Shown here piece after piece: positions 4,745-21,200 of a stretch of DNA of 24,813 nucleotides. The number at the start of each line of letters is the position of its first letter. The stretch's first letter is position 1. A program made the position numbers and the translations under genes. The stretch is taken from IMG/VR virus record IMGVR_UViG_3300037504_000157, positions 1-24,813 of that record. The stretch is one strand, 5' to 3'. The notes under the pieces are model-generated. The model made no database searches. It saw only the letters and a program-made list of their open reading frames with translations, and was not told where the DNA came from. This DNA is from a virus.

Positions 4745-5191
4745 TTACAATTCTTCGGTATCTTCCTTTAGAATTACTTTAATTCTATTTGGCTCTGGTA
4801 CACCTTTCAAATGCCAACTCTGCATATACAAATCTCTACTATCCACTATGAAATACTCTGAATTGCGCACATAGTCTAAATATATGCCGCTATAAGTTAT
4901 CGTAACATAGCAATCGCCATTGTCTATAATACCGCCAGATTGCCAATTCTTTTCCTCGGTTTTACTCCAGACTACATGAGCTTGAATATCCACACCTGAA
5001 GTAGTTTGCATCCAATAATACCCATCACAAACTGGGCACAAACCGCTTGCTGATAATCCAGTAACCGGGTCTAAACTACATCTGGGGCAAGCTATACCAG
5101 TAACAAGAGTGTGTATTGTAATCTGCCTGCCAATAGTATCACGTATTTCATCTATGGTTTCTTTAGTGTCTTCTGGAAAGATAATGTTCAT
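4745..5191 (-). CDS. Zinc-ribbon head-tail adaptor-like protein, putative
   Basis: This 148-residue protein has a four-cysteine zinc-binding pair, ACPRC near residue 34 and CPVC near residue 52, separated by 14 residues. It is followed by a beta-rich C-terminal part (VTITYSGIYLDYV, FIVDSRDL). Small beta-barrel proteins at this position are often head-closure or stopper proteins. The ATG at 5191 lies inside the 3' end of the glycosyltransferase gene (29-base overlap), with AGGAAG upstream. The gene therefore marks the return from the inserted modification cassette to structural genes. The zinc site is a direct reading; the structural role is inferred from position. Confidence 0.55.
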   Translation of the reverse strand: MNIIFPEDTKETIDEIRDTIGRQITIHTLVTGIACPRCSLDPVTGLSASGLCPVCDGYYWMQTTSGVDIQAHVVWSKTEEKNWQSGGIIDNGDCYVTITYSGIYLDYVRNSEYFIVDSRDLYMQSWHLKGVPEPNRIKVILKEDTEEL

Positions 5192-6362
5192 AAGTCCACT
5201 TCCTATAATCTTTCTCTAAAACATGATTAAATAAATCTTCCCAAGCAGATGCAATTACCTTCCAATCAAATCTATCACTGGTTACTAGATTATAAATTGC
5301 CTCGGCTTTTTGCTCTCTAAGCTTTTCCCGCTCGTAAACTTTCTGTAATGTACCGGCTACGCCCTGCGGAGTAACTACTCCACCGTCAGTTAAGATACCT
5401 GGATAAGTATACCAGCTTTCTACCGGTGTATAATAAGCTGTATCACCATAAATTTCTGGCGGCGCGGAATAATCAGTTACTACCTGAGCACGTTTACAAG
5501 CCGCGTGCTCAAAGTTTGTGAGGCCAAAGCCCTCTCCCATAGAAGTATTTATGCCCACATCACAAGCATTATAGATGTAATTAAGCCTTTCGATTGATAC
5601 ATAATTTTGTGGGGATAATTCTAATGAGGTGAGGATTAGTCTATCTTCTATATTGATGTCCGGACGCCTAGCTAGCTTTATTATATCCCAACCTGCATCA
5701 CGAATTCCACAGTGCATATATAGCTTAACATTTTCAGGCTTATCCTTAGCAAAAATGGAAAACCCTTTCATAGTTAAATCTAAGCGTTTGCGTCTTTGAT
5801 TGCGATTGGCATTGAGGAAAATAAAATAATCCTCATTTAAGTTCTCTAGTTTCTGCCTAGCTTGTGTTTTTGGTATAGGATAGAAAATATCTTTATCAAT
5901 ACCATGCGGTATAACTTTAATATCTGCTGCGGGCACAAAATCTGTAAATGCGCCCCTACCAAATTCGGTATAAGCTACTGGGATGCTATGCTGCACAATA
6001 GGATGCACCCACTCCAAATCAAGAGGTTTGGCATCTACTGGAAAATAAACAACTACTGGAACATCGTAAGCTTCTAATATTTCCAAATACTTGGGCACTA
6101 CCCAAGGATCATTCAATATGAAGACCAGGTCCGGTTTAAATTTATCCATTAAATTGCCTAGGCGATTAAACCCATACAAGTCCCCGCCTAAACGCGCCGG
6201 GTATAGATCATAGTCAACTGCATGATAAGGGTCGCCATTATAATTTATAGCTAAATGCACAACCTCGTAATCCTCGGAAAGATTAGAAAAAATACTTTCT
6301 GTAACCCTGGCAAACCCAGTTGCTACCCCACCATCTCCAACACACAACACCTTTTTACCCAT
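5163..6362 (-). CDS. Glycosyltransferase, GT-B fold, GT4-like
   Basis: The 399-residue product has the size and layout of a complete GT-B enzyme that transfers a sugar from a nucleotide sugar to an acceptor. A glycine-rich N-terminal loop GDGGVATGFARV lies at residues 9-20. The linker-region motif NANRNQRRKRLDL is at 184-196. The EX7E motif, E277 to E285 in GEGFGLTNFE, is the donor-phosphate or catalytic signature of family GT4. No signal peptide or membrane anchor is seen, so it should act in the cytoplasm. It lies at the tail-proximal end of a five-gene cassette of glycosyl- and sulfotransferases set between connector genes, so its acceptor is plausibly a virion protein or glycan. Sugar and acceptor are not identifiable. 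Confidence 0.88.
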   Translation of the reverse strand: MGKKVLCVGDGGVATGFARVTESIFSNLSEDYEVVHLAINYNGDPYHAVDYDLYPARLGGDLYGFNRLGNLMDKFKPDLVFILNDPWVVPKYLEILEAYDVPVVVYFPVDAKPLDLEWVHPIVQHSIPVAYTEFGRGAFTDFVPAADIKVIPHGIDKDIFYPIPKTQARQKLENLNEDYFIFLNANRNQRRKRLDLTMKGFSIFAKDKPENVKLYMHCGIRDAGWDIIKLARRPDINIEDRLILTSLELSPQNYVSIERLNYIYNACDVGINTSMGEGFGLTNFEHAACKRAQVVTDYSAPPEIYGDTAYYTPVESWYTYPGILTDGGVVTPQGVAGTLQKVYEREKLREQKAEAIYNLVTSDRFDWKVIASAWEDLFNHVLEKDYRKWTYEHYLSRRH

Positions 6363-6374
6363 TTTACTTCTCCC

Positions 6375-7106
6375 TTAAATTTCTTGCCTAAATAATTTTT
6401 CCCAGTACTTATTTTGCAAATACTCGGTTGATTTTACCTCTTCTAGACTCAACCAATTTACCCAATCGCCTATAATACCTTTTCTACGCCAACGGTCATT
6501 GCGTACCTCTGCCCCAGGTTCACGTCCAGATTTATTTTTAAACGAATGCTTGCGCTTAAGAAATTTCAATGTATTAACTTGAGGATTAAAACCTATAACT
6601 TTTGATATAGCGGTTACTTCTGAGATTATATCCTGCTTCATCCACTCATAAGAAGTCCACACATAATGTGAATCCTTACAATGGTTTCTAGTACTGTAAT
6701 AATCCCACATCATATCGAGCATATTCTCTGAGTATCGCCTAAAATTCTCAGAAGCAAAATAGCGTTTTATAGCATCTGCATCTGAGACATACATCTTAGG
6801 ATTTCCACTTCTATCATATCTACGGTGAAAAGCGCGTGATACTCCCTGGTCCCTAGGGTTTCTAACCACACCTACTACAGTATAATCAACCGGCTTTAAA
6901 ATCTCAAGAATTTGCTCTGGTAAAGCATGGTGAAACTTTACAATGCGCCCAGCCTCAAAGTGCTCGCGAATTAAATCTTGTTTCTGCTCTATTTTACTGA
7001 CATCAATTTCTGGGCTAGTGCGCATTTCAAATAAATCTGCTAGCCAATAATGCAACCACCTGGAACCGCAACGCATTTCTGATGTAATAATAATCCTTTT
7101 ATTCAT
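6375..7106 (-). CDS. Sulfotransferase (PAPS-dependent type)
   Basis: This 243-residue protein has the sulfotransferase core that moves a sulfuryl group from PAPS to a hydroxyl or amine. The 5'-phosphosulfate-binding loop is TSEMRCGSRWL (residues 8-18). The 3'-phosphate motif is RNPRDQGVS (82-90), with R82 and S90 in the expected places. The C-terminal RRKGIIGDW (207-215) matches the RKGxxGDW co-substrate motif of classical cytosolic sulfotransferases. His59/His60 in KFHHALPE could supply the catalytic base. The gene overlaps the upstream glycosyltransferase by 8 bases and sits 12 bases before the next, so it is co-translated with sugar transferases. A sulfated glycan product is the natural inference; the acceptor is unknown. 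Confidence 0.85.
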   Translation of the reverse strand: MNKRIIITSEMRCGSRWLHYWLADLFEMRTSPEIDVSKIEQKQDLIREHFEAGRIVKFHHALPEQILEILKPVDYTVVGVVRNPRDQGVSRAFHRRYDRSGNPKMYVSDADAIKRYFASENFRRYSENMLDMMWDYYSTRNHCKDSHYVWTSYEWMKQDIISEVTAISKVIGFNPQVNTLKFLKRKHSFKNKSGREPGAEVRNDRWRRKGIIGDWVNWLSLEEVKSTEYLQNKYWEKLFRQEI

Positions 7107-7968
7107 AAGTTCTACCCTTTAATAACTTCCTAAAAGCTGCCCTATGTGAATCTTGCCAATGTTTTAAGGTATAATTATTTGAAATTTTTCTAAGTTTCTG
7201 CTGGTCGTGTTCGTCATCTAAGCATTTCTTAATTGCTTCAGACATAGACTTAAAATTACCAGCCTTAAAATACCTTACCCCTTCCTGCTCCCCAAATTCG
7301 TCCAACATACCAACACCCTTGGGAATGACTAATTTTACTCCACAAGCCAATGCTTCCAATGGAGGTATTGGTATACCCTCTATTAACGACGTACATAAAT
7401 AAATTTGTAACGACCTAAAAAACCTTGGCATATTCCCGCCTGTTACATGCCTGTGTTTTACTGGCCACCCGCGCCCCACAACTCTAAAATCTATATCATT
7501 TGATAATTTACTATTACTAAGAGCCTTAACTAGATGTAACCCCTTTCTATTTCCTTCTGTTACGTAACCCGCCAACCCCACAATTGGTTTAGTAACCTTT
7601 TTACCAATGGTAAATCTACTATGATCAACATACGGGGTAACTTTACATACTAAAGCGCGTGTCTGTGTTTTAAGTAACTCCATATATTGATCTGCGCATG
7701 TAGTACAAATATCATATTCTTTCGCCAACTTTCGCCAGCGTCTAGACTTAGCAGACTTTTCATTATAATGACTAAACCAAGCGCCTGTAAATGTTTTATA
7801 CTTTTTTGGTGCCAAACCCTGAAGATAACACATCCCATAATTTATATCTGCACTTTGGTCCGGGTTTCTCCCAATAGAATAACTGGGTTGCCCCCTCACT
7901 AGGCCCCGACCAAGTCTTGGAACTATTTTTCCACTATTTGGGCGTTTGACTAATACTCTTACTTGCAT
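7099..7968 (-). CDS. Glycosyltransferase, GT4-like (short)
   Basis: This 289-residue protein keeps the C-terminal half of a GT-B glycosyltransferase. GLAGYVTEGNRKGLHLVKAL (131-150) resembles the donor-domain start, FRVVGRGWP follows, and the EX7E motif is E197 to E205 in EGIPIPPLEALACG. The N-terminal acceptor domain is shorter than in standard enzymes of about 360-400 residues. Two Cys pairs (CTTC at 88-91) are notable. The weak ribosome site (ACGGAAATAC) and the 10-base overlap with the gene before suggest translational coupling. Donor and acceptor cannot be read from the sequence. Confidence 0.8.
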   Translation of the reverse strand: MQVRVLVKRPNSGKIVPRLGRGLVRGQPSYSIGRNPDQSADINYGMCYLQGLAPKKYKTFTGAWFSHYNEKSAKSRRWRKLAKEYDICTTCADQYMELLKTQTRALVCKVTPYVDHSRFTIGKKVTKPIVGLAGYVTEGNRKGLHLVKALSNSKLSNDIDFRVVGRGWPVKHRHVTGGNMPRFFRSLQIYLCTSLIEGIPIPPLEALACGVKLVIPKGVGMLDEFGEQEGVRYFKAGNFKSMSEAIKKCLDDEHDQQKLRKISNNYTLKHWQDSHRAAFRKLLKGRTYE

Positions 7969-8924
7969 TTGTATTTCCGTATTATATCTGATACACGATT
8001 GCGAATAGCTTCAAAACTATAATATTTTTTTATAAATTCAAATCCTCTTTCACGTTGGCGCTTATAATAGTTTTCATCTTGTATCAATCTAACTCCTAAC
8101 TCTACAGCGCGTTGTGTATCAAAAGGATCACATAAAGGGTGTCCAGTTGGATTAGTCCACATACTACCAACCATTGGAGTTCCTATTATAGCGTGTGCTA
8201 GTCCGTGTCTGTTTTGTGCATGCGCAGCATACATATCTACGCCAATTAAAGAGGTGCCTATAATTTTTATAAATTCCCGGTAATTAACTCGCGGATTGAA
8301 TTTTATATTAGATATACTTGTTAATTTAGCTGCCCTCTTAGTATTGTTTCTTGGTAAAAAATATACAATTCTAGCGTTCGTTGCGCTATTTATTCCGGCT
8401 AGAACAGCTATATTTTGCATAGTTCTATTCGGCTCGCTCTTGTGATCAACAGTGAGAATATATTTCTTTTTTGGCAAAGACCTATATTTTTTGTATGCAG
8501 TAGTAGGACCTATTGGTGAGGGCAACCATTCCCCAGGAACCCCTGTAAGATTAGAGTACAAGTTTGCAGCTTGCCTAGTGCGTGCCGCTATTACATCACA
8601 ATAATTTTTAATGTCCTTAAGTCTAGTTATACCTTTATTATGATTTAAAAACTTTTCTAGATGTGGGTCTGGCATTGCAACAATTAAAGCATTCGGACGG
8701 GCGTCTCTTAAATGTTTTAGATGTAAAGAATTAAAAAATAAATTAACTAAAAAAACATCGTAATTATTTAGAACTTTTCTACCTATTGGAGTCTTTTCCC
8801 AATAAAGTCTATGACATTCTAACGCTCTTGGCAGAGCCGAAATACCAACAACTGGTTTTTCTGGATGCTTAAATTTTTCAATGCGTTTTTTAGATTTGTA
8901 TACATATGCAACACGCTCAAACAT
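7959..8924 (-). CDS. Glycosyltransferase-like protein
   Basis: This 321-residue protein looks like a diverged GT-B sugar transferase. An N-terminal alpha/beta region (YDVFLVNLFF, NALIVAMPDPH) is followed by a short linker, then a donor-type domain with KKYILTVDHKSEPNRTMQNI, RIVYFLPRNN, a DMYAAHAQNRHGLAHAIIG segment and a terminal helical tail. The usual EX7E pair is not obvious; the HGLAHAIIGTPMVG stretch occupies its place. The gene is basic in composition and AT-rich, like its cassette neighbours. It abuts the second sulfotransferase and overlaps the next glycosyltransferase by 10 bases. Function as a glycosyltransferase is an inference from fold pattern and company. Confidence 0.62.
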   Translation of the reverse strand: MFERVAYVYKSKKRIEKFKHPEKPVVGISALPRALECHRLYWEKTPIGRKVLNNYDVFLVNLFFNSLHLKHLRDARPNALIVAMPDPHLEKFLNHNKGITRLKDIKNYCDVIAARTRQAANLYSNLTGVPGEWLPSPIGPTTAYKKYRSLPKKKYILTVDHKSEPNRTMQNIAVLAGINSATNARIVYFLPRNNTKRAAKLTSISNIKFNPRVNYREFIKIIGTSLIGVDMYAAHAQNRHGLAHAIIGTPMVGSMWTNPTGHPLCDPFDTQRAVELGVRLIQDENYYKRQRERGFEFIKKYYSFEAIRNRVSDIIRKYKCK

Positions 8925-9455
8925 TTATAACCACTTTCCAGCTACATTACTGTCTATAAAATTAACTGGTTTATATTTCAATTTACATTCTTTAGCCAAC
9001 CATTTTAACGTTGATTTTGGATAATGTAAAAGAGCTTGAAAATCTAACATATAGTATTCTACATCTTTGGATTTAATCGCGGACAAAATCATAAGATACG
9101 CTTTCCGTATATTTTCCAAACCTTTTCTATAAGTATTTACATGTTTGCGCCTAGAAGTTTGTGAACTTATTGTACTTTTCCAATCTCTTATAGGCACGAT
9201 TATTACAGGCTTATATCCAACCGCTTCAAACTTTTCAATATATGTTTCTAAATCAGGCCACGCATTTGCGTGTGGGAAACTTCTTCTTAATACTACATCG
9301 CCCTTAGATTTTAAAAAATCCTCAAGGTTATCAAGATGTTTATCTATCTCTTGCTTGTGTCCAAATTGCCCGTATACTCCCCAGTGCACTAATATCTTTG
9401 CAAGCAGGCGTGTACCAGAACTTTCAGAACCCATAATTAAATATGCTTTAGACAT
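8925..9455 (-). CDS. Small sulfotransferase-like P-loop protein
   Basis: This 176-residue protein begins with a beta strand and loop, YLIMGSESSGTRLLAKIL, which matches the 5'-phosphosulfate (P-loop-like) element of sulfotransferases. The segment VIIVPIRDWKSTISSQ (85-100) has R90 and S98/S99 at the 3'-phosphate-binding positions. Small proteins of this GSESSGTR type occur in phage and bacterial glycan loci. It is the first gene of the five-gene modification cassette and directly abuts the next gene (stop at 8925, ATG at 8924). A nucleotide or kinase-like activity is an alternative, because only the two phosphate-binding elements are clear. Confidence 0.68.
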   Translation of the reverse strand: MSKAYLIMGSESSGTRLLAKILVHWGVYGQFGHKQEIDKHLDNLEDFLKSKGDVVLRRSFPHANAWPDLETYIEKFEAVGYKPVIIVPIRDWKSTISSQTSRRKHVNTYRKGLENIRKAYLMILSAIKSKDVEYYMLDFQALLHYPKSTLKWLAKECKLKYKPVNFIDSNVAGKWL

Positions 9456-9460
9456 GGCAC

Positions 9461-10207
9461 CTACTTGTAACCCTCTCTAACATTTTTAGGGTATTTAAAT
9501 CCAGGCAAAGACTGTCTAGCAACACCGTATAGCTTCCCATTCAAAAGCTTTTCTAATAATTCTCGGTCTTGTTTAAGAACATCTCTAGCAGCCCTACCCG
9601 CACCTAGGTTAGAAAAACTAATCTCGTCGTCTTTCCAACTTTGTAAATCCCAGGTATGATTCTTAAGTTCTGCCGATTTTACAATAATAGCTGCTTGCAC
9701 CACTATTAGAGGCTCGTCATTAAATAAAACTACCGGCGGCTCAGAGTCTTCATATCTATGCTTGTTAATATTCCTGACTATATTGCCCTCAGCGTCTATT
9801 TTATATTTTCTGCGCCAGCGCCTGCCTAAAGTTTTTAATGCTAGCAATAGAGCATCGCTTAATGTCTCTCTACTAAATTGGTAGTCAGTAGGGTCAATAT
9901 CCCCAAGATAAACACGCAAATCCTCAATTAAATAATCTAAATCTGTAGTACTATAATCTACTACTGTAAAAGTACCAACTTCTACATAACTTCTATTATC
10001 TTTATAACCTGTAAAAACGTAGCGATGCCCACCCTCACCAGAAGTTAGATAATAAGCGTGATATGTTTTTTCAGGTTTACTTTCCTGCGGGGATAAAACC
10101 CTTTCTGCCCCTCCAGGCGTAATTAATATACCAGAAACGCTGGTAGGCTCTACAGAAAAAGTAACCTCACATTTTACAGTTTCTTGTAATTGCTGATAGT
10201 CAGGCAT
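9461..10207 (-). CDS. Head-tail connector protein, putative
   Basis: This 248-residue protein has an N-terminal beta-rich part (EVTFSVEPTSVSGILITPGG, then YVFTGYKDNRSYVEVGTF). A helical C-terminal part carries LRVYLGDIDPTDYQFSRETL followed by ALLLALKTLGRRWRRKY. The pattern 'yLgD..p..y.fs...L..aL' is typical of phage head-completion or connector (gp6-like) proteins that sit under the portal. It lies two genes after the major capsid gene and just before the inserted sugar/sulfate cassette. AAGGA precedes ATG 10207. The fold call is by motif pattern and place, not by alignment. Confidence 0.6.
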   Translation of the reverse strand: MPDYQQLQETVKCEVTFSVEPTSVSGILITPGGAERVLSPQESKPEKTYHAYYLTSGEGGHRYVFTGYKDNRSYVEVGTFTVVDYSTTDLDYLIEDLRVYLGDIDPTDYQFSRETLSDALLLALKTLGRRWRRKYKIDAEGNIVRNINKHRYEDSEPPVVLFNDEPLIVVQAAIIVKSAELKNHTWDLQSWKDDEISFSNLGAGRAARDVLKQDRELLEKLLNGKLYGVARQSLPGFKYPKNVREGYK

Positions 10208-10803: not shown

Positions 10804-12059
10804 CTATGCTAAACTTGAAATATCAATAACGTAAATGCCCTGCGCTCGGTCAATAATCATGCCGAATTGCTGATCGCTTGTGTTATTCAAGAAGCTTCGG
10901 TTTGCTTCTTACTCTCATTATCGCTAATGAGGCCGGACTATACTATCACCCTTTCGGGGGCACCCCTCTAGTCTCTGGACCTTGCCCTTTTAAGGGCCTT
11001 GGCTGCTGATTGTCTGCAATTAAAATTTTCAGATTACGTTTGCTTTTTCAAGCTCCGCTTACTATTTTAATATACTCAGAGGTTCCAGCAATTTGAGTGC
11101 TTGCTCAATAAGTATTTCTACTTATTAGTTGCCCCTTTTAGCTATGCCAAGCTAGTGATATCTATTACATAAATACCCATAACTTTATTTACCAGCATGC
11201 CAAAATTTAAAAACAACTCAAGATTCCACTGCGGGGGCGTCGGCTCCATATTGGTCCATTCTTTCCAGCGCGGTTCGCCGTAAGTAATGAACTCGCCAAC
11301 ATTCTCTCCCAGCACCAGAACATATCTATCTTCCAGCAACTTGGAATAGTCAACTAGATTATCCCATACCTGCTCAAGAGCAACGATATTAGCGCCGTAA
11401 TACTTGCCCAAGAAACCAGTGCGGTGAATCTCGCGGATGGCCTCCTCATTAGCGACGTAATTGCTCTCATCAGTATGGAACCCGCCAAACTCCGTTATAG
11501 GAGCTAGCGCCCTGCGCGTACCAACAACGCTGCGCACACTACCAACTTTATAATTAATCTCGTCAATAGCATCTTTCAAAGTAGAAGCAGACAGCGTAGC
11601 TTCTGTAGCATAATTGTCGGCGGTGTTAGACTCCGACCAGATATTCCCTAAGCTCGTGAACACGCGGCTAACAAAATAATCCTTAAGCTTAGCCTGCATC
11701 TCAGAGCGAATATCCGCAACGCTACCCAACTCACCTGATTCTAACTCCCACTCATTAGCAGTGACACGAATGTCAGCGCCATCGAGCATGTAATTTACGC
11801 GATCTTCAACCGTGATCTCACTAGCCAGGTGCACCGAACCGGGTACCAGACTGCGCACCTCAATCCCCTTGCGCACTTTCTTTACTAAGGCATCTCCTGG
11901 CTCCATTCTGCGCGTATTGAGCATAAGTCCCACAATATCCTCAGTAACGTGGCGCGGGTCAATATACTCAACAATCAGAGAAGCCAAAGCATCTCGCTTG
12001 TTGCGATCACTGGCCAAAGAAGCATAAGCTTCCTTAAACTTCTTCTCGTTAATATCCAT
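10804..12059 (-). CDS. Major capsid protein, spliced form: join of 12059-11213 and 10874-10804
   Basis: This is the HK97-fold-type major capsid protein by position (after portal, protease/scaffold and decoration genes) and by size. The gene is split by a group I intron. Exon 1 ends in codon TTG plus a T (11213); exon 2 starts at 10874 and stops at TAG 10806-10804. The joined protein has 305 residues and ends LYQQFGMIIDRAQ then GIYVIDISSLA. I prefer ATG 12059 (MDINEKK) over 12065, because the GGGAG ribosome site directly abuts the first ATG but lies 6 bases before the second. The exact junction is inferred from P1 pairing (exon GUUGU with guide GCAAC), from an intron-terminal G, and from equal length with the unspliced product. 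A junction shifted by a codon remains possible. Confidence 0.82.
10875..11212 (-). ncRNA. Group I intron (about 338 nt) in the major capsid gene, no endonuclease ORF
   Basis: Core helices can be read directly. P7 is GACTA (10973-10969) with TAGTC (10940-10936). P3 is GGAACCTCT (11086-11078) with the segment 10968-10959. P8 is CCC-GAAA-GGG (10958-10949). P5 is GCCC/GGGC (10997-10984). The conserved element GCAGACAATCAGCAGCC precedes P5. P9 is a 7-bp stem with a GCGA tetraloop (10931-10914), and a further 7-bp stem follows (10910-10889). The guide GCAAC (11132-11128) pairs with exon GUUGU, leaving the terminal U-G pair expected at the 5' splice site. The 80 bases between splice site and guide encode an alternative capsid C-terminus. 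No P10 pairing with the proposed exon 2 start was evident, which is the main doubt about the 3' site. Confidence 0.9.
11107..11126 (-). other. GAAA-tetraloop hairpin just after the intron guide sequence
   Basis: AATAAGTA and TACTTATT form a perfect 8-bp stem capped by GAAA, starting one base after the guide sequence of the group I intron. It is in the position of a P2-type element. A GNRA loop here could dock into the ribozyme core. Confidence 0.7.
11142..12059 (-). CDS. Major capsid protein, unspliced form with intron-encoded C-terminus
   Basis: Reading straight into the intron, the capsid frame stays open for 71 bases and stops at TAG 11144-11142. It gives a 305-residue protein, the same length as the spliced form. 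Its last 23 residues, starting FLNFGMLVNKVM and ending GIYVIDITSLA, match the exon 2 end at 13 of 23 positions, with conservative changes at most of the rest (F/Y, L/I, V/I, N/D, K/R, T/S). In the final 11 codons the two copies differ almost only at synonymous positions. An unspliced transcript should thus still make an intact capsid subunit. Whether both forms enter the virion is not known. Confidence 0.8.
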   Translation of the reverse strand: MDINEKKFKEAYASLASDRNKRDALASLIVEYIDPRHVTEDIVGLMLNTRRMEPGDALVKKVRKGIEVRSLVPGSVHLASEITVEDRVNYMLDGADIRVTANEWELESGELGSVADIRSEMQAKLKDYFVSRVFTSLGNIWSESNTADNYATEATLSASTLKDAIDEINYKVGSVRSVVGTRRALAPITEFGGFHTDESNYVANEEAIREIHRTGFLGKYYGANIVALEQVWDNLVDYSKLLEDRYVLVLGENVGEFITYGEPRWKEWTNMEPTPPQWNLELFLNFGMLVNKVMGIYVIDITSLA

Positions 12060-12069
12060 TGTCATCTCC

Positions 12070-12648
12070 CTACGGGCTTAACGTGCGCACAGTAAGAGCA
12101 AAATTGTCGCTGTCCCAACGCTCAACAACAGCAACAGCAGTCTTACCATTCGCAGTAACAGTCAACTTACCAGCATTAGCTTCACTTTCATTACTGGCAT
12201 CGGCAGCGTACAATGAAGTTCCAGGCGTCTTCATAGAAGCATTGTAAATAAACTGCCCGGAAGGAATTGTAAACACCCCACCACCAAAAGCCAACGCTAG
12301 CGTACCGGAAGGAATAGTCACACTTTCCTGGTAACCAGGATAAGTGAGATAAATGCTCTTTCCGGTAACAGGTGCGTTAGAAGACTTATCAAAGCCCTGA
12401 CGCAACGCATAATTATAACTTGGCCAACTGACAATGGGCGGTTCTCGCCGGTCAACTTTCCAAGTAAGAACGTACTTAGCCTTACTGGCTTCGGAAGCAT
12501 TATCAGGAAGCTTAACTCCTGGAACGTCTTCCTTTCTACCGGTCAAGTCTGAATAACTGAAGGTTGAAGTGAACAACACCATTCTACCTTCCGTGGTATC
12601 TTCAGTCGTGACCACACCAGTAATATCTGAAAACTTGTTAATTTCCAT
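12070..12648 (-). CDS. Head decoration / stabilisation protein, putative
   Basis: This 192-residue protein, beginning MEINKFSDITGV, lies between the scaffold and the major capsid gene, where decoration proteins of the gpD type are encoded. I chose ATG 12648 because AGGAG sits 7 bases upstream. The frame extends further (to 12690), but that start lies inside the preceding gene and lacks a ribosome site. The sequence is beta-rich, with Gly/Ser/Thr turns (SGTLALAFGGGVFTIPSGQF) and a C-terminal Ig-like flavour (KLTVTANGKTAVAVVERWD). Its stop overlaps the capsid gene ribosome site, so translation is probably coupled. The function is inferred from order and composition. Confidence 0.6.
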   Translation of the reverse strand: MEINKFSDITGVVTTEDTTEGRMVLFTSTFSYSDLTGRKEDVPGVKLPDNASEASKAKYVLTWKVDRREPPIVSWPSYNYALRQGFDKSSNAPVTGKSIYLTYPGYQESVTIPSGTLALAFGGGVFTIPSGQFIYNASMKTPGTSLYAADASNESEANAGKLTVTANGKTAVAVVERWDSDNFALTVRTLSP

Positions 12649-12658
12649 TTCTGAACTC

Positions 12659-13075
12659 CTAACTCTTATCCAAATTCTTAAGACCTTCACGAATGATGTC
12701 TAGTGCGGATTCATCGGCATCACCACTAAGGTCGGGAATTCGTTCAGTCTGAGAGGCCGCAGCAGAGCGCACCTCTTTCATCATTGTAATCATCGCCGAA
12801 AAAGCTTCATCAGAAAGCTCTAAGAAAACCTCGCGCTTCTCTTCTAGCTCTTCCTCGGAAAGCTCAATACCGGCCTCAGCGAGTTCCTGCAAACGCGCAG
12901 CCAAAAGCTCGCGCTCAGCCTCTGCCTTTTCTCGCTGCTCTTTGTATTCTTTAAGCTCTTTATTAGCCTCAACCAACTCAGAATTTGCATTAGCCAACTC
13001 TTCATTAGCAGATTCCAACTCTTCAACGGTAGAACTCAACTCTTCTACCTTCTCCTCAAGCTCCTGCATATCCAT
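12659..13075 (-). CDS. Nested scaffold protein from an internal in-frame start
   Basis: Within the protease-scaffold gene, ATG 13075 (residue 211) follows a perfect GGAGG with 5-base spacing (TCGGAGGAAAATATG). It lies exactly at the junction between the protease-like domain and the coiled coil. Initiation here would give a free 138-residue scaffold beginning MDMQELEEKVEEL. This mirrors lambda, where the scaffold Nu3 is translated from inside the protease gene C. The ribosome site is better than that of many true starts in the window. The free scaffold is predicted and not proven. Confidence 0.7.
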   Translation of the reverse strand: MDMQELEEKVEELSSTVEELESANEELANANSELVEANKELKEYKEQREKAEAERELLAARLQELAEAGIELSEEELEEKREVFLELSDEAFSAMITMMKEVRSAAASQTERIPDLSGDADESALDIIREGLKNLDKS

Positions 13076-18579: not shown

Positions 18580-18839
18580 TAGATACCTTTAAAATACTCT
18601 GGAATTTCTTCCGCCTCAGAACACACTTGCAAAAAATACTCTGGTGCCTCCTCACGAATTTGCTCTTCAATATACTCACTCACCTTTTCTGGCGAGTGTT
18701 TAGATAGAAAATATATATCCAAAACCATCTTTCTAAGTGCGGTATTCTTCTTAATTATTGCGGCGGTGAGCACATCGAAAAAGTGCGCAAAATCCTTCTC
18801 TTCGTCAACATATTCCGATAGATATTTAGAATAATTCAT
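18579..18839 (-). CDS. Small acidic protein of unknown function
   Basis: This 86-residue helical, acidic protein (begins MNYSKYLSEYVDEEKDF, ends EIPEYFKGI) has a GGAGAT ribosome site before ATG 18839. Its start lies inside the 3' end of the RNA ligase gene (14-base overlap). No family recognised. Confidence 0.6.
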   Translation of the reverse strand: MNYSKYLSEYVDEEKDFAHFFDVLTAAIIKKNTALRKMVLDIYFLSKHSPEKVSEYIEEQIREEAPEYFLQVCSEAEEIPEYFKGI

Positions 18840-19704
18840 AACACATCTCCTTTGATTTTGCTATTATACAATGATACAAATCTGCAAAATCAATAATAGG
18901 GCGCTTATTATCCTTTACAATTTCATACATCTCCGCATCTAGAATATCATGCCAAATCCTGCCGAAAAACTCTGGTATGCGCTGCCTAGATAGAGGTTCT
19001 GACTCACGCATCTTAGCCAAAATCTTTTCCACTCTACCACGAGTTACATACTTACTTGCTACCGCTTCTTCTATACTGGAAGTAACAGTCTCCTTACTTT
19101 TATGCTGCTCTCTAAACCTAGCATTAACTAACTTGGCCCAAAGCGTTCTCCCATATTGGTTTACAAAATCATAGCGTTTGATCACAATACCTTCGCCCAC
19201 ACAACCCTCTTGCATCATGTAAGTGTTATTCTTCATGAATTTTAACAATTGTTGGCGCGTCGGGTTGCGCATGCCTTTAGCAGGTACTACTTCAATGTTT
19301 TCAGGCTCAAAGCATTTAAAGAGATAAATATAAGAATGATAGTCTAAATATTTTTCCTTGGAGTGAGAATATACATCAAAAAGATAAAACTTTCTCCAAG
19401 CCTCTGGTACATAAGTTTTAAGCGTATGTGGAACCAGCCATTCTCCATATAATCTTAAATCTGGATTCTTTTTTAATAGAGGCAAGAAGCTATCTTTATT
19501 TTCTAATACCCAAGCATAGAATCCTTGGTTATCCTTCTCTAAGGTTAATTGCCTATTTCTGCTCCCAGCTTTTAACTCAGAATCCTCAATCCAAACAGAA
19601 GCATTAGTTCCATCTAATTTAGGAAAAACATAGCAAACGCCCTTCGTTATACCCTTCACCTCATCCATACCGAGGCGCTTTAATTTTTCATAACGCCTAA
19701 ACAT
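18826..19704 (-). CDS. RNA ligase, Rnl2-like nucleotidyltransferase
   Basis: The 292-residue protein has the ordered motifs of the ATP-dependent ligase superfamily. Motif I is KLDGTN (29-34, with K29 as the adenylated lysine). Motif Ia-like GSRNRQL is at 47-53, and E87 lies in LYGEW. Motif III is FDVY near 109-112, motif IV is EGIVIK (171-176), and motif V is AKLV with K191. Such ligases seal nicked RNA, and in phages they often repair tRNA cut by host defence nucleases. No polynucleotide kinase gene is visible in the window. A strong GGGAGGGGG ribosome site precedes the ATG. It lies in the early-type block together with a tmRNA-like RNA and an HD phosphohydrolase. A DNA-ligase role is a weaker alternative. 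Confidence 0.82.
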   Translation of the reverse strand: MFRRYEKLKRLGMDEVKGITKGVCYVFPKLDGTNASVWIEDSELKAGSRNRQLTLEKDNQGFYAWVLENKDSFLPLLKKNPDLRLYGEWLVPHTLKTYVPEAWRKFYLFDVYSHSKEKYLDYHSYIYLFKCFEPENIEVVPAKGMRNPTRQQLLKFMKNNTYMMQEGCVGEGIVIKRYDFVNQYGRTLWAKLVNARFREQHKSKETVTSSIEEAVASKYVTRGRVEKILAKMRESEPLSRQRIPEFFGRIWHDILDAEMYEIVKDNKRPIIDFADLYHCIIAKSKEMCYELF

Positions 19705-21061: not shown

Positions 21062-21081
21062 TTTTGCCCCCTATATCATAG

Positions 21082-21200
21082 TGGACCTGGCCGGAATCGA
21101 ACCGGCGTACACAGGGTTCACACAGCCTTCGGCGTCTTAACTGGGTTGGTTATCGCGTACAAACTGTTTATACTAACTGTGGCGAATCCTAATCAGGCCC
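21082..21200 (-). ncRNA. tmRNA-like / tRNA-like RNA, about 119 nt, strongly reduced
   Basis: GGGCCTG (21200-21194) pairs with CAGGTCC (21089-21083) to form a 7-bp acceptor stem with one G-U. A perfect T arm (GCCGG-TTCGATT-CCGGC) lies just inside. The 5' side continues ATTAGGATTCGCC, close to the tmRNA signature GGNTTCGAC rather than a tRNA D arm. The 3' side GTAC-T arm also matches tmRNA layout, and CACAG/CTGTG can form a short P2-like helix. No anticodon arm is present. The interior is only about 60 nt, far too short for normal pseudoknots, and no tag ending in Ala-Leu-Ala-Ala-type codons is seen. The 3' end is A-CTA, so CCA is not encoded. It could be a degenerate tmRNA, a minimal tRNA mimic or a decayed tRNA. 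Confidence 0.6.

Follow-up and report, generated by a model that had tools for sequence, protein, structure and literature searches.

A putative glycan- and sulfate-adding gene cassette within the head-tail block of an uncultured tailed phage

At issue here are five open reading frames (ORFs), spanning positions 5163-9455 of what is described below as the window, i.e., the complete IMG/VR virus record IMGVR_UViG_3300037504_000157, which is a phage fragment 24,813 bases in length. Reading along the minus strand, genes for terminase, portal, and protease/scaffold lead to that of a 206-aa capsid-block protein (12070-12690), after which come those for the major capsid protein (MCP) and connectors and then the five cassette genes. 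These are followed by further connector as well as tail genes, ending at a truncated tape-measure-like protein. The MCP is named from its position and synteny, its PHROGs matches being to families of unknown function. The five ORFs, all minus strand, lie between two virion connector genes, and in order of transcription, ending with the two flanking genes, they are as follows (PAPS is 3'-phosphoadenosine 5'-phosphosulfate).

STB, 8925..9455, minus strand: small sulfotransferase-fold protein, as predicted from an AlphaFold model, structural matches, and homologue profiles
GTC, 7959..8924, minus strand: protein that is GT-B-like by eye only (its ending), with no credible profile or fold match
GTB, 7099..7968, minus strand: predicted glycosyltransferase (Glyco_trans_1_2; PF13524, PF00534), with an E-x7-E motif in EGIPIPPLE
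STA, 6375..7106, minus strand: predicted SULT-type PAPS sulfotransferase (PF00685, SULT chains in the PDB, three PAPS motifs)
GTA, 5163..6362, minus strand: predicted GT-B family-4-type glycosyltransferase, a core member of the head-tail block in this clade (PF00534, phrog_2170)
Conn, 9461..10207, minus strand: conserved connector-region protein, 5' of the cassette, syntenic across the clade
Hc1, 4745..5191, minus strand: conserved virion-block protein, 3' of GTA, with a weak phrog_1004 match, syntenic across the clade

Spacing is tight throughout, with 5 nt between Conn and STB, 0 nt between STB and GTC, a 10-nt overlap of GTC with GTB, an 8-nt overlap of GTB with STA, and 12 nt between STA and GTA. 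As cassette genes thus are separated by no more than 12 nt or overlap slightly, and as the 3' end of GTA overlaps Hc1 by 29 nt, this packing suggests a single, co-transcribed unit that would be expressed late. Promoter and terminator scans were uninformative, i.e., promoter-like sites were somewhat more frequent than in shuffled sequences while terminator counts were at shuffle level. The first-pass annotation, based on this DNA alone, had described five genes with overlapping ends among head and tail genes, and as to ORFs, span, strand, and packing that description holds. An independently assembled relative (contig 3300037826_000057, here L020) keeps the same cassette, and this conservation rules out chance ORFs. 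Chimeric assembly also was considered but is unlikely, as that independent contig shows an identical gene order.

Two of the three proposed glycosyltransferases (GTs) may be viewed, going by their profiles, as securely predicted. GTA matches Glycos_transf_1 (PF00534) at 34 bits versus a cut-off of 26.4 and matches phrog_2170 with an E value of 1.4e-44. Its E-x7-E active site is present as GEGFGLTNFE, and the GEGxG-x4-E motif is found in 106 of 124 GTA-labelled proteins, with the remainder in part truncated or intein-split and others carrying a varied motif. The one strong match in the PDB, which is also the best, is chlorovirus B736L (E 2.8e-40). The GTA of L020 (L020:13515-15983) is 822 aa in length, with an intein bearing a LAGLIDADG domain sitting inside the GEGWGL active-site region. 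GTB in turn matches PF13524 (E 2e-13, 50.9 bits versus a cut-off of 25) and PF00534 (1e-10). The third assignment, that of GTC as a glycosyltransferase, is tentative only: the single-sequence AlphaFold model has a mean predicted local distance difference test score (pLDDT) of 33, with no credible fold match. GTC had no match in phage records and elsewhere was found only in contig 3300037826_000057.

Of the two sulfotransferases (STs) that had been proposed, the larger, STA, may be considered a secure prediction of a PAPS-type enzyme. It matches Sulfotransfer_1 (PF00685; E 3.8e-12, 46.6 bits versus a cut-off of 22) as well as solved SULT structures (E 1.5e-13). As originally described, all three PAPS-binding motifs are present, i.e., TSEMRCGSRWL (residues 8-18, the 5'-phosphosulfate-binding loop), RNPRDQGVS (residues 82-90, the R..S 3'-phosphate-binding motif), and RKGIIGDW (residues 208-215), with RKGxxGDW kept by three of four aligned homologues. 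Relative to L020, the nonsynonymous-to-synonymous ratio (dN/dS) is approximately 0.20 with dS saturated, which would be consistent with purifying selection. None of 50,697 phage records matched STA, nor, with STA as a single-sequence query, did anything in IMG/VR, while an alignment-based search recovered 13 loci. The other sulfotransferases tested also had no match in phage records. At L007:4180-4792, upstream of the large terminase gene (terL; protein TerL), there is a second STA-like gene that is broken into two frames.

STB itself has no Pfam family match and is filed by its fold and not under any curated family. Of 11 homologues, four match Sulfotransfer_3 (PF13469) and four match Stf0 (PF09037), at E values of 0.05 or less and with weak scores. 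Structure prediction, which the first-pass annotation had suggested for all five proteins, gave for STB, but not for GTC, a usable model (pLDDT 82), and this model has a sulfotransferase fold. The top ten VIA structural matches are all sulfotransferases (Z 13.9-11.0), with the first kinase at Z 10.9. The loop GPESSGTR, conserved in 11 aligned sequences, is without the Walker lysine of kinases, and R90..S98 is invariant across those 11. STB by these measures is a small sulfotransferase-fold protein with a PAPS-type loop in place of the kinase Walker lysine. Comparison of STB with STA by hhalign was not significant, and a profile search of the PDB with A11 placed mostly repeat proteins on top, with a tyrosylprotein sulfotransferase at E 0.02 only. 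Tyrosylprotein sulfotransferases nevertheless are among the folds nearest to STB, and STB, perhaps along with STA, could be sulfating tyrosines of virion proteins directly, without glycosyltransferase involvement. That would seem quite improbable, however, since olefin-synthase, curacin, heparan, and trehalose sulfotransferases score alike, i.e., the fold does not give the substrate, and since the sulfotransferases co-occur with glycosyltransferases and sugar genes.

Scans with TerL, MCP, and GTA gathered approximately 155 loci of what is an uncultured phage clade. Toward avoiding bias in favor of GTA, its position was counted only in those loci which had been found by TerL or MCP and which span from Conn to Hc1, Sm, or Neck. 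In 37 of 37 such loci a GTA gene is found between Conn and Hc1/Sm/Neck, and 33 of these have no other gene in that interval. A phage-encoded glycosyltransferase gene within or near virion genes, as a virion glycosylation system should possess, consequently is present in every spanning locus. The divergence of GTA also tracks that of MCP (r 0.62) and of Hc1 (r 0.72), with none of 2000 permutations reaching either value. Because GTA is fixed in position and diverges in step with MCP and Hc1, the region is better described as a fixed glycosyltransferase plus a four-gene insertion: by these measures GTA is a core gene of the virion block, with the other four genes representing variable cargo in a recurrent slot. 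The earlier picture of a five-gene cassette interrupting the connectors therefore stands with respect to the four cargo genes but not as a single five-gene insertion.

The cargo varies among relatives. Between Conn and GTA, L090 has an STA homologue along with a methyltransferase and two genes for which Pfam gave no match, while L089 carries there a Sulfatase-family protein, FkbM, and extra glycosyltransferases. In L015 (L015:7925-11180), genes for Polysacc_synt_2, GNAT, and NeuB, representing a predicted phage nonulosonic-acid-type sugar pathway, directly follow Conn, with the contig stopping before GTA. There is, in addition, a second island, found directly upstream of TerL. Its genes include GT2, methyltransferases, DegT aminotransferases, FkbM, MptE-like genes, NDP-sugar enzymes, GDP-mannose dehydratase, NeuB, and sulfotransferases. 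In L182 this island (L182:3-7429, followed by TerL) consists of a cytidylyltransferase, NeuB, two MptE/DUF115-like genes, GT-like and FkbM-like genes, and two sulfotransferase-like genes. An STA homologue is found in it, as is an NKWYS protein. STB homologues occur in the TerL-upstream islands of L005 and L035.

The exact order STB-GTC-GTB-STA-GTA recurs in a second, divergent phage, which is L020. Comparison with that phage defines one additional feature.

Exchanged block, 7097..9275, no strand assigned: the 3' two thirds of STB, plus GTC and GTB, with 8 mismatches in 2,179 nt versus L020

This block is 99.6% identical between the two phages while most surrounding 100-bp bins are 50-70% identical, with an abrupt drop on both sides. 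The breakpoints lie inside STB and at the very start of STA; STA is only 53% and GTA only 51% identical. Given near-identity within versus 50-70% identity in the flanks, STB (3' portion), GTC, and GTB were recently exchanged between two otherwise divergent phages, that is, judging from the alignment, the cargo moves between phages. As a separate observation, a group I catalytic intron (Rfam RF00028, 59 bits; window 10914-11167, minus strand) overlaps the capsid gene at its 3' end and coincides with a near-identical patch at ~10.87-11.15 kb, which is 96-98% identical to L020 with flanks of 60-70%.

Such mobility might be taken to imply that the cargo, all four genes of it, was picked up recently and rides along without a settled function, particularly as the exact cargo is found in only two phages, as the block was recently exchanged, and as a sulfotransferase gene is broken in L007. 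We nonetheless view this as very improbable, the least likely of the explanations considered here: reading frames are intact, STA shows the signature of purifying selection noted above, the genes are tightly packed, and related functions recur in the same slot.

STB relatives also turn up in phages with capsid proteins from other PHROG families, i.e., phrog_3116, 3922, 771, and 1357 (L192, L199, L208, and L217, respectively, the phrog_3116 protein of L192 being taken as capsid from its position alone). In each of these four a small sulfotransferase is located among head-tail genes, with a glycosyltransferase adjoining or a few genes off. As the pairing is present in phages with capsids of different families, it originated or was spread on multiple occasions at this head-tail location. 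The first-pass idea of virion modification gains from this recurrence as well as from the fixed position of GTA, though with the acceptor still a matter of inference.

Among known systems, glycosylation of mycobacteriophage virions by phage GTs (Che8 gp110, Corndog gp38, Myrna GT) is described as established, for capsid and tail tube proteins, in PMC12363180 (citing Freeman 2023). The cassette would resemble these in its proposed function. In an F1-cluster relative, by contrast, the GT genes are near the genome 3' end (PMC11256854), while here a GT is fixed among connectors and linked to sulfotransferases. Autonomous capsid glycosylation by chloroviruses (the PBCV-1 GT set) is similar in employing virus-encoded, mostly soluble GTs, with B736L the sole strong PDB relative of GTA. 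The B736L homologue A546L is listed among PBCV-1 GTs in PMC9614988, which in the passages concerned leaves the B736L acceptor unresolved. Unlike here, the virus is eukaryotic and those passages describe no sulfotransferase step. Also related are the phrog_2170 GTs of Synechococcus phages S-CBS4 and S-EIV1 and of Tetrasphaera phage TJE1, to which GTA is 28-37% identical over at least 95%. In S-CBS4 the homologue is two genes from the portal gene, together with one galactosyltransferase and one methyltransferase. In none of these three, however, is a sulfotransferase annotated beside the GTA homologue, and the S-EIV1 copy is away from virion genes. S-EIV1 (L161:1-176; KJ410740.1 17153-18619) also has an annotated sulfate adenylyltransferase ~8 kb from its GTA homologue.

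The first-pass annotation had considered a linked sulfation step to be something not known in tailed phages, and in that form the claim is not supported. Sulfotransferase domains or genes of unclear function are reported in tailed marine and environmental phages (PMC10580990, PMC8290583), and a connection of GT/sulfotransferase pairs with nucleotide (DNA-base) modification has been drawn (PMC10829341, citing Iyer 2013). What differs here, so far as the relevant portions of those papers go, is context, i.e., linkage to a GT, location in the head-tail block, and recurrence across lineages. A search of open-licence literature found no sulfotransferase linked to a syntenic GT in a head-tail block, which is not proof of absence, and no relevant match among papers for sulfated phage virions.

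That same proposal of GT- and sulfotransferase-based nucleotide modification in phages (PMC10829341) raises the possibility that these enzymes hypermodify phage DNA, with a base handle glycosylated and sulfated toward evasion of restriction. One gene of the TerL-upstream island indeed matches a TET-associated GT. Base-handle enzymes (TET/JBP, thymidylate synthase-like) were sought across 31 clade records, the window itself being a genome fragment. Tet_JBP was found in none of the 31, a weak negative that only weakens this explanation as the control search gave no match anywhere. A thymidylate synthase-like gene was found in just one, yet that one is the sister phage L020, with the same cassette. 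As NeuB, MptE-like, and FkbM genes, which are the neighbours here, typically go with glycans on proteins or surfaces and not with base chemistry, DNA modification is considered to be unlikely.

More plausible than that, if still unlikely, is action upon the host, i.e., upon envelope or surface glycans, as would give rise to receptor masking or superinfection exclusion, or upon another host glycoconjugate. Phage genes that modify surface polysaccharides are described as established, such as phage-encoded capsule O-acetyltransferases (PMC6586298), and the cargo families do resemble capsule or O-antigen loci (NKWYS, DegT, NeuB, GT2). The cassette nonetheless is without flippase, polymerase, membrane-spanning GT, or strongly hydrophobic segment, and there is no obvious reason for a host-surface gene to be locked among connectors, as the core GT is in all spanning loci.

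What instead appears probable, if by no means assured, is that the cassette is a cytoplasmic, swappable, late-operon module that adds glycan and sulfate to virion proteins. Cytoplasmic modification of virion proteins is favoured because the enzymes are soluble, because they are encoded within the virion operon, and because genes for protein- or surface-glycan biosynthesis are found nearby; none of the five proteins has a strongly hydrophobic segment, which fits with cytoplasmic action. GTA would prime, placing a sugar on a co-produced protein acceptor, and this acceptor most likely would be one of the virion's own head, connector, or tail proteins. GTB, perhaps with GTC, would then extend the glycan, onto which STA and STB would transfer sulfate, with STB possibly sulfating protein instead. 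The first glycan step, via GTA, would be conserved, while the outer part of the glycan would vary because the cargo beside GTA is exchanged between phages. Among 21 clade records none had an adenosine 5'-phosphosulfate (APS) kinase match that passed the cut-off, so PAPS would have to be supplied by the host.

That lack of an APS kinase is also among the points that weigh against virion modification as just described. PF00685 matches are found in only 7 of 48 clade records, one of these being in the metagenome-assembled genome (MAG) carrying L158. GTC, additionally, had no credible match by Pfam, by PDB sequence search, or by hhalign versus GT profiles. Lastly, a late-operon position is not proof of acceptor, as the S-EIV1 GTA homologue adjoins a primase rather than virion genes.

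Several observations concern the window or clade more generally. An RNA ligase (PF09414, 1.1e-18; window 18826-19704, minus strand) is encoded upstream of the terminase region, and there is a tmRNA family match (RF00023, 54 bits; window 21079-21200, minus strand), which is 122 nt only and was not found by ARAGORN. TerL is 870-916 aa in length in L020:757-3495, L015:167-2917, and L045:3881-6496, with that of L020 having at Walker A an insert that resembles an intein, and at L020:6743-8496 a 219-aa homing-endonuclease-like ORF splits the major capsid gene. Scanning of genome contigs for a host yielded two MAG contigs only, whose labels conflict (one Brevinema, the other Bathyarchaeota), and no host is claimed.

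As a fixed member of its block, GTA suggests that phages of this clade decorate their own particles with sugars, possibly sulfated. More tentatively, and with the balance leaning somewhat against it, this widespread clade may build on its particles a strain-specific glycan coat that GTA starts and that swappable cargo finishes, i.e., via GTs and sulfotransferases here, or in relatives by means of methyltransferases or of a NeuB-type pathway for sugars. Tailed phages could then have their first known example of virion glycans that are sulfated, and a convergent one given ST-GT pairs in the head-tail blocks of unrelated phages. If so, then particles would be coated with exchangeable sugars that carry negative charge. 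This surface trait, distinct from the tail fibres, could control adsorption as well as particle binding and recognition, and the first-pass annotation had suggested that mucus binding and immune recognition, too, might be altered. Phage sulfotransferases, which have been reported with unknown role, would in that case gain a concrete function, and a testable rule would follow: where glycosyl- and sulfotransferases are encoded in the connector region, modified virion proteins should be expected.

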